The translations under genes and the position numbers were made by a program. Of a stretch of DNA of 64,000 nt, positions 59,780 through 61,482 are shown piece by piece (the stretch's first letter is position 1; each line of letters begins with the position of its first letter). The stretch is from Tetrahymena thermophila SB210 (lineage: Eukaryota > Ciliophora > Oligohymenophorea > Hymenostomatida > Tetrahymenidae), in contig NW_002475927.1 of the NCBI RefSeq assembly GCF_000189635.1, positions 124,001 through 188,000 of the forward strand, read 5' to 3'. Below the pieces are notes generated by a model that did no database searches, was not told where the DNA came from, and saw only the letters and a list, made by a program, of their open reading frames with translations.

Positions 59780-60062
59780 TAAATTTATTTTTCATATCTT
59801 AAAAAGAACAAATAATATGAATAAAAACTTTTCTTTAATTTAAAAAAATTCTAAAGAATTTCTTTTTTCATTATTCTGTTAGAATTTAATTTCACATATT
59901 TTGCTAACAAGTAATATATATATTAATGACGCATATTAGAATTATTCTATTGTGTTCCTTTTCTATTTGATATATGTACCTCTATTTTAAATCCTTGATT
60001 GTAATCTTAATACTGTAAATTCAATAAATATTAAATCAAAAAATATTATAAGTTAATCTAAA

Positions 60063-60435
60063 ATGGGAGCAAATATTACTGTTCCTGAAGACGTAAAATA
60101 GATATAAACCAACAAGAATCTTAAGTTTTAAGTCTTGATAGAATATTGCGGGTCCTGAGGGTATCAAAATATGTTCGACTACGCTAAAAAGTGCATTGAA
60201 TAAATCTACCCTTCAGCAACAGTAGTCGGAAAATAAATAGCAGGATATACAGGATGTTTCGATATCTATGTAAATGGCAAAAATGGGACTCTGTAATACT
60301 TTTTTTATAATAAGCCTTATATTAATTTTTTTTATAAACTAAAGAGTTCATAGTAAAAATAATGGAGATGGTGGTCTTAGGGTTTAAAATGTTGGTTTAG
60401 TGATGCAAAAAATCAAATCAATTGTTGAAAAATGA
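60063..60435 (+). CDS. SELENOW: Selenoprotein W (Rdx family), TGA read as selenocysteine
   Basis: Small thioredoxin-like redox protein, 106 residues in two exons: 60063-60292 and 60345-60435 (intron 52 nt, phase 2). The N-terminal strand KFQVLIEYCGS is followed by an in-frame TGA at 60156-60158 and then GYQNMFDYAKKCIEQIYPSA. This is the family CxxU redox motif, Cys29-Gly-Ser-Sec32, placed after the first beta strand as in animal SelW (CGAU). Downstream signatures match: GYTGCFDIYVNGKNGTL, then HSKNNGDGG across the splice, then a C-terminal helix VGLVMQKIKSIVEK. The stop is TGA 60433-60435. A SECIS-like hairpin lies 69 nt further on. Every other confident gene here ends at TGA, except for the unresolved internal TGA of the TPR gene. 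A standard gene finder would stop at residue 31. The 5' flank from 59780 is short, AT-rich and empty. Confidence 0.93.
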
Positions 60436-60503
60436 GTGAATGAATGATGAAAATTGCATTTGACATAAAAGTATTTAAATACAATTTAATTGATATATTT
60501 TAA

Positions 60504-60576
60504 AAGTTTATCTTTTTACTATGAAGCACTAAGATGGAAATCCTTTGGATCATCTCGTGCTGAAAATTAAAAACTT
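60504..60576 (+). promoter_or_regulatory. SECIS element (selenocysteine insertion), type II-like
   Basis: In the 3' UTR of SelW. Helix I: AAGTTT (60504-60509) with AAACTT (60571-60576). Core: ATGA at 60521-60524 opposite TGA at 60561-60563, the expected non-Watson-Crick quartet. Helix II: AGCAC with GTGCT, and AGATG with CATCT. An unpaired AAA follows near 60538, then a mini-stem ATCC-TTT-GGAT that makes it form II. Distance from ATGA to the AA bulge is normal for SECIS. It should direct Sec insertion at codon 32. Confidence 0.85.
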
Positions 60577-61482
60577 ATGGTTTAATAGTATAAAATATTT
60601 GTTATACTCTTAAATTCATTAAGTTAAGAAAAGAATAAACATAAAATATACTTTTAAATTATAAACAACACAAATGTTTTTTTCATATTTTACTTTTTAT
60701 ATATCTGTAAAATATTTTATTATTATCTTTTATAAATTACTTGACTGATATACTTACTTTTTAAATAAAACTTAAGAACTAAACTAATGGAAATTGCAAA
60801 TAATTTTTAGATGGCTTCATTCATTTTTTAATGAAAAATATAAAAATTGTTAATAGTAGACAGATCTACTTATTAACAAATATATATTTTAATTATATAA
60901 GTAAAATGACTATTCAAAAATTAAAAAGAGCTAAAATTGATAAAATAACAAGTTTTAATTTTATTGGTTGTATCAAGTTAGCTATAAGATGGTTTGATAT
61001 TGCAAATTACAGATTTTAATCACTAATAAAAAACATTAAAATTATGGCCTTAAATGTACAGTAATAATTTTGACTTTTACAAAAGGTTTGCTTATATCAA
61101 TTTTTTGAAAAATCAATTAGACTAATTACAATTTTAGATTAAAAGCTAATCAAACTTTAATAAATAAAGAAATGTAGATGAGAAAAGGAAATATTTTGTA
61201 GTTTTGACTTACAAATATTCAATTAATAAAATTATATGATTAAAATATATTTAAAAGAAAGTAAACATTTGAAATAATAAAATAAATAGTTAGTTATTAA
61301 ATTTATTTACTAACTTATTTGTTTTTTGAAATAGGTATTTTTTAGAATTTATTGCTCATTGATTTATTGAATTCATTTTTTATTAATTAGTTTTAACTAA
61401 AATTTATAATTAGCTTTATTACTTAATTCATTAATCACTTTTTTTTCATTTTTTTATTTCTGGCTTTATTTTTATATCAATT
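60577..61482. other. Intergenic between convergent genes
   Basis: 3' flanks of SelW (+) and the coiled-coil gene (-). A 62-codon ORF at 60831 has no support. AT-rich, no structure seen. Confidence 0.55.

Follow-up and report, generated by a model that had tools for sequence, protein, structure and literature searches.

Tetrahymena selenoproteins and the double role of UGA

Six selenoproteins have been described in the freshwater ciliate Tetrahymena thermophila: two GPx, three TrxR, and SPS2. In the passages cited here, the paper that lists them states that others are quite possible (Coyne 2008, PMC2612030), and another repeats the six selenoproteins and the dual use of UGA, with a tRNA that was acylated and Se-labelled (PMC2636879). 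A later count, from 2020, gives only five T. thermophila selenoproteins and describes the Sec-GPx as being without a SECIS element; the cited parts of that paper also report eEFSec and an SBP2-like gene in this organism and use the count to argue that ciliates are an exception to the association of an aquatic habitat with a large selenoproteome (PMC7409322). As UGA is the sole stop codon, it must carry two meanings in every selenoprotein mRNA.

Published SECIS elements are present in the genome. The 93-nt element of the TrxR gene TTHERM_00047660 matches at 93 of 93 positions, and the 88-nt element of SPS2 matches at 98% over 86 genomic bases. Both of the Sec-type GPx genes (L035 and L036) have a TGA-bearing exon and a published SECIS, 63 and 117 nt past the stop codon. 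The SECIS elements of these two genes run against the statement on ciliate Sec-GPx in the cited part of PMC7409322.

Here we describe a gene in a 64,000-nt, A+T-rich stretch of T. thermophila DNA (the window). The best reading, with a probability of about 0.93, is a functional nuclear gene that encodes a SelW-type selenoprotein, a member of the Rdx (SelT/SelW/SelH) family, with Sec at the UGA of codon 32 and termination at the UGA of codon 107. The initial annotation had proposed a selenoprotein W gene here, and it is supported by the reading frame, similarity to Rdx on both sides of the UGA, a 3' hairpin, a tRNA-Sec gene, and sister genes that are arranged in the same way. Searches of an open-access library, in which most matches were listings, turned up no earlier description of SelW, SelT, or SelU from Tetrahymena. 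The initial annotation had also stressed that the sole stop codon doubles as a Sec codon; this is correct for Tetrahymena, but it is not novel, as the cited passages of PMC2612030 and PMC2636879 already report it.

Table 1. Coordinates of the SelW gene, its SECIS element, and published or candidate selenoprotein genes elsewhere in the genome. Positions without a locus name are in the window.
Feature	Position	Strand	Description
SelW exon 1	60063..60292	+	Codons 1-76 and two further nt; context of the start codon, AAAATGG; from translation; spliced protein matches Rdx/TIGR02174
SelW putative Sec UGA	60156..60158	+	Residue 32, U of C-G-S-U; in the family's redox Cys column; UGA also there in paralogue SelW2
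SelW intron	60293..60344	+	Predicted; GT..AG, 52 nt; GC 0.135 (vs 0.33 in flanking coding sequence); joining restores the LVHSKxxGDG block of SelW
SelW exon 2	60345..60432	+	Ends at residue 106
SelW stop UGA	60433..60435	+	Rdx similarity (residues 24-100 of 106) finishes just upstream
Two extra in-frame UGA codons	60445..60450	+	+4 and +5 past the stop; possible back-up stops
Possible SECIS helix I, 5' strand	60504..60509	+	AAGUUU; by eye; partner 60571-60576; uncertain
SECIS core, type-II-like	60521..60565	+	AUGA...AAA in apical loop, UCC/GGA mini-helix...UGAA; constrained scan -11.7 kcal/mol, null, and fold
Possible SECIS helix I, 3' strand	60571..60576	+	AAACUU; by eye
SelW2	L004/L007, G000:C334:225387-225632; CDS L004:1474-1749, stop 1750-1752, SECIS 1841		Scan -11.2 kcal/mol
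SelT-like selenoprotein	L001:1153-1923, SECIS 2009 (G000:C4)		CIGU; hairpin -10.0 kcal/mol
SelU-type gene (SelU-a), PF13911	L040:1453 and 2248 (G000:C35)		RHFN-TGA-YVC; 3' hairpin -8.8 kcal/mol
SelU-type gene (SelU-b), PF13911	L039:1453 and 2068 (G000:C174)	reverse complement	RHFF-TGA-YVC; 3' hairpin -3.8 kcal/mol
TrxR TTHERM_00047660 tail	L009:1317-1331 (G000:C122)		TGC TGA GGT TGA: a single codon between the Sec and stop UGAs; SECIS core 193 nt past stop

A SelW-type protein with an in-frame UGA at the redox site

With the frame taken from the ATG at 60063 and with UAA and UAG read as Gln, the product has 106 residues, with U at position 32 (Table 1). The motif C-G-S-TGA-G-Y does lie at 60147-60164, exactly where it had been annotated. 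The C-x-x-U redox motif of the Rdx family is thus present as C29-G-S-U32, toward the N terminus of the domain, and the protein may have a redox role through C29 and U32. The N-terminus of the protein, MGANIT (60063-60080), resembles an N-myristoylation signal.

With Cys substituted for Sec, the protein scores 46.7 bits against Pfam's Rdx model (PF10262; cut-off 22.6) and 48.9 bits against TIGR02174 (SelT/SelW/SelH; cut-off 34.2). Only two solved structures match it at E ≤ 1: selenoprotein W (2npb, E = 2e-6) and C17orf37/Rdx12 (2ljk, E = 4.9e-5). This comparison, which had been suggested as a check, places the protein in the Rdx family, above both curated cut-offs. SelW itself is the best solved relative, and a closer kinship to SelW than to SelH, SelT, or Rdx12 is tentative. 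The insertion of the SelT-like paralogue described below is absent from it.

The sequence after the UGA is also protein coding. By themselves, the 74 residues that follow the UGA score 24.2 bits against Rdx (E = 3.9e-5), which is above Pfam's cut-off of 22.6; their similarity to 2npb is weak (E = 0.018). The G+C content is 0.333 upstream of the Sec UGA and 0.329 downstream, as compared to 0.135 in the intron and 0.171 in the upstream flank. Because of the Rdx similarity of the downstream part, and because its G+C content is like that of the part before the UGA, we conclude that the frame past the UGA is coding. The spliced coding sequence (318 nt) contains one in-frame TGA, and the other two frames contain two and three. 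An in-frame UGA stands at the catalytic site and coding sequence continues after it, as expected of a eukaryotic selenoprotein gene. Alternatively, the gene might be of the Cys type, or a pseudogene, with a premature UGA that arose by chance and a coincidental hairpin. However, the lone in-frame UGA falls exactly at the U of CxxU, and the frame after it is open and resembles Rdx.

The frame had been annotated as crossing a 52-nt intron, and we agree: across the junction, phmmer aligned the continuation LVHSKNNGDGG to LVHSKKRGDGY of selenoprotein W (2npb). In vivo, this one intron would be spliced out of the transcript, ribosomes would reach the UGA at codon 32, Sec would be inserted under the direction of the SECIS element, and the second UGA, at codon 107, would terminate translation.

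Extra in-frame UGAs follow the stop codon in SelW (+4 and +5) and also in a GPx gene (UGA UGA, the reverse complement of L035:2049-2054). These are as expected, because tandem stops are reported to be over-represented in UAR-reassigned ciliates (PMC6879139, in the part cited here).

A SECIS-like hairpin in the 3' region

A hairpin of the form ATGA...AA...TGA had been noted 3' of the stop, and it is indeed present, with its core 85 nt past the stop codon (Table 1). From 5' to 3', the core has AUGA (starting at 60521), the first strand of helix II (13 nt, interrupted by a small internal loop), an unpaired AAA, the UCC/GGA mini-helix, the second strand of the helix, and UGAA. Folding of the 45-nt core gives -12.8 kcal/mol (z = -3.14), which none of 200 shuffled sequences equalled. 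With flanking sequence included (81 nt), the advantage is modest: z = -1.92, and 13 of 200 shuffles were as good. A possible helix I can be drawn by eye, and it is absent from the minimum-energy fold of 60500-60580.

Whether the hairpin scores above background as a SECIS element depends on the method. At E ≤ 10, Rfam's SECIS model matched nothing in 59900-61000, nor did it match anywhere in the window at the gathering cut-offs. We also built a covariance model (R1) from the published T. thermophila SECIS elements other than that of SPS2, which was excluded for its 4-nt bulge; the five that remained were padded with N to equal length. R1 gave the SelW hairpin 12.3 bits (E = 6.3), which ranked 26th of 44 matches in the window, and it gave the elements of SelW2 and SelT 13.1 and 14.5 bits, which were not separated from noise in their own loci. 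Given its 44 matches in the window, the candidate's rank, and its weighting toward A/U, R1 was dropped as a discriminator. Two MAFFT alignments of the six published elements were also set aside, as helix columns were misplaced.

The hairpin does stand out in an energy scan, which required [AG]UGA, 30-42 nt, and [GU]GA, with a forced pair adjoining the core, an AA left unpaired at the appropriate depth, and a helix of 7 or more pairs, and which scored matches by constrained folding. Because the candidate and the published elements were already known when the rules were written, the figures are tilted toward the candidate. The SelU loci, which were retrieved once the rules had been fixed, provide the out-of-sample check. 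Of the six published T. thermophila SECIS elements, the scan finds five and misses that of SPS2, which has a bulge. On both strands of the window (128,000 strand-bases), it gave four matches: SelW at -11.7 kcal/mol, and then -3.1, -0.8, and -0.5. Simulated Markov sequence of first order (16 Mb) and of second order (16 Mb) yielded one and two matches, respectively, at -10 or below and none at -11 or below; at -4 or below, about 2-3 matches per Mb are expected by chance. Thus, a SECIS score above background, which the initial annotation had asked for, is given by the energy scan (no match as good in 32 Mb) but not by Rfam or R1, and it is the energy scan that places a SECIS element in the 3' UTR, where a eukaryotic selenoprotein gene should have one. 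For a pseudogene with a coincidental hairpin, it can be said that neither Rfam nor R1 calls the element; yet this architecture, at this stability, would arise by chance less than once per 16 Mb.

Further selenoprotein candidates in the same genome

We searched the genome (101.0 Mb in 445 contigs) by an Rdx family search and a protein search, followed by translation. Because the Rdx family search missed the window's own SelW, the results of genome family searches are lower bounds.

First, the genome contains a second SelW-type gene, SelW2, which encodes 92 residues with the motif CGG-U-GYK. Like SelW, it has a UGA at the equivalent site (SelW's codon 32) in a C-G-x-U-GY motif, and it has its own SECIS element, 88 nt past the stop; its frame runs on past the UGA. 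Unlike SelW, it has no intron and no N-terminal extension, and the two proteins are only 29% identical. That such a diverged, intronless gene shares the UGA codon and has a SECIS element of its own is also hard to square with a pseudogene, and given this and the placement, open frame, and hairpin described above, we consider a pseudogene or a chance premature UGA at the SelW locus to be very improbable.

Second, a SelT-like protein of 256 residues, with an insertion and an N-terminal extension, matches Rdx at 58.8 bits. An unconstrained fold of 81 nt around its hairpin favours a different structure. Cys homologues of the Rdx family are present as well (CDSC in L003 and CQNC in L002).

Third, there are two SelU-type genes, whose first-exon proteins score 35.7 bits (SelU-a, L040) and 48.0 bits (SelU-b, L039) against PF13911 (cut-off 27). 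A neighbouring twin gene (in L038) has a Cys codon at the position of the UGA (RHFF-TGC-YVC) and lacks a hairpin of its own. The element in L039/L038, at -3.8 kcal/mol, is weak taken alone.

When the energy scan was run on the window and 43 loci (404,852 strand-bases, with overlapping loci counted more than once), it gave 20 distinct matches. The eight with the lowest energy lie 3' of TrxR, SelW, SelW2, SelT, SelU-a, the two published Sec-GPx genes, and SelU-b, all of which have an in-frame UGA at the active site. The ninth (-3.4, in L008) is unrelated. A match to the same locus in the protein search (contig C411, E = 0.04) was judged to be due to chance.

Other families yielded no further candidates. 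Genome family searches for SelK and deiodinase gave no match, and their controls were equally silent; the search for Sep15/SelM gave no match. None of the four stretches that matched MsrA or the three that matched MsrB contains an internal TGA. Among contigs from viruses and from prokaryote genomes, 11 and 7 pattern matches, respectively, were found, and none was confirmed as a relative.

How the UGA codons are read

The genome encodes a tRNA-Sec: a match to RF01852 at 68.6 bits (cut-off 47), with anticodon TCA by eye. ARAGORN reported no tRNA at this locus. The RF01852 match supplies the Sec machinery that is expected to accompany a eukaryotic selenoprotein gene. In other ciliates, UGA encodes Cys or Trp, which raises the question of whether the UGA at codon 32 might be read as another amino acid (by a near-cognate tRNA, or as Cys or Trp) instead of Sec. 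The tRNA-Sec gene argues against this, as does the use of UGA as the stop codon in SelW and its sister genes. Also, a SECIS-like hairpin accompanies each of the eight top-ranked UGA genes, while the Cys twin of SelU-b has TGC and no hairpin. We regard a reading of codon 32 as anything other than Sec as scarcely credible.

In low selenium, the UGA might mostly act as a stop, so that the functional output would be a 31-residue peptide or decay of the mRNA, with full-length SelW made only when selenium is available. In animals, selenoprotein mRNAs become liable to decay when an intron lies 3' of the Sec codon. SelW has this geometry, and its Sec codon is also the sole stop codon. We think such a regulated switch unlikely.

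Distance to the SECIS element does not seem to separate the two kinds of UGA. Across the eight genes, the SECIS lies 85, 88, 85, 117, 193, 63, 104, and 76 nt past the stop codon; a common distance, which the values of 85, 88, and 85 nt had suggested, is ruled out by the other five. More directly, the Sec UGA and the stop UGA of TrxR TTHERM_00047660 are one codon apart under one SECIS, so distance from the SECIS cannot be a general discriminator. We lean toward the view that UGA encodes Sec in at least 11 T. thermophila genes (the published six along with SelW, SelW2, SelT, and two SelU types) and takes on opposite meanings even 6 nt apart under one SECIS.

If so, Tetrahymena would be a natural system in which to ask how ribosomes distinguish UGA as Sec from UGA as stop; as it is a genetically tractable model, what separates the two is directly testable. 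SelW and the four other candidates were overlooked because gene finders take UGA as a stop. Together they would about double the T. thermophila count, whether from the six given in the cited part of PMC2612030 or the five given in that of PMC7409322, and the argument of the latter that ciliates are an exception to the association of an aquatic habitat with a large selenoproteome would need another look.

Comparison with known selenoproteins

SelW adds one more to a known type of gene, and the inventory of T. thermophila selenoproteins is incomplete. Compared to the six published ones (two GPx, three TrxR, and SPS2), SelW shares the genome, the genetic code, and the SECIS architecture (AUGA, an 11-13-nt helix strand, AA(A), and UGA[AG]), but it belongs to another family, which is absent from the list in PMC2612030 as cited here. 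Like eukaryotic selenoprotein W (SELENOW, PF10262/TIGR02174), it has the C-x-x-U motif, the Rdx domain, the LVHSKxxGDG block, and a Sec UGA together with a SECIS element in the 3' UTR. It differs from SELENOW in its N-terminal extension of about 20 residues, which starts with MGANIT, and in its one short intron. It also differs in its code: in Tetrahymena SelW, in-frame UAA and UAG encode Gln, and the UGA that encodes Sec is also the only stop codon.
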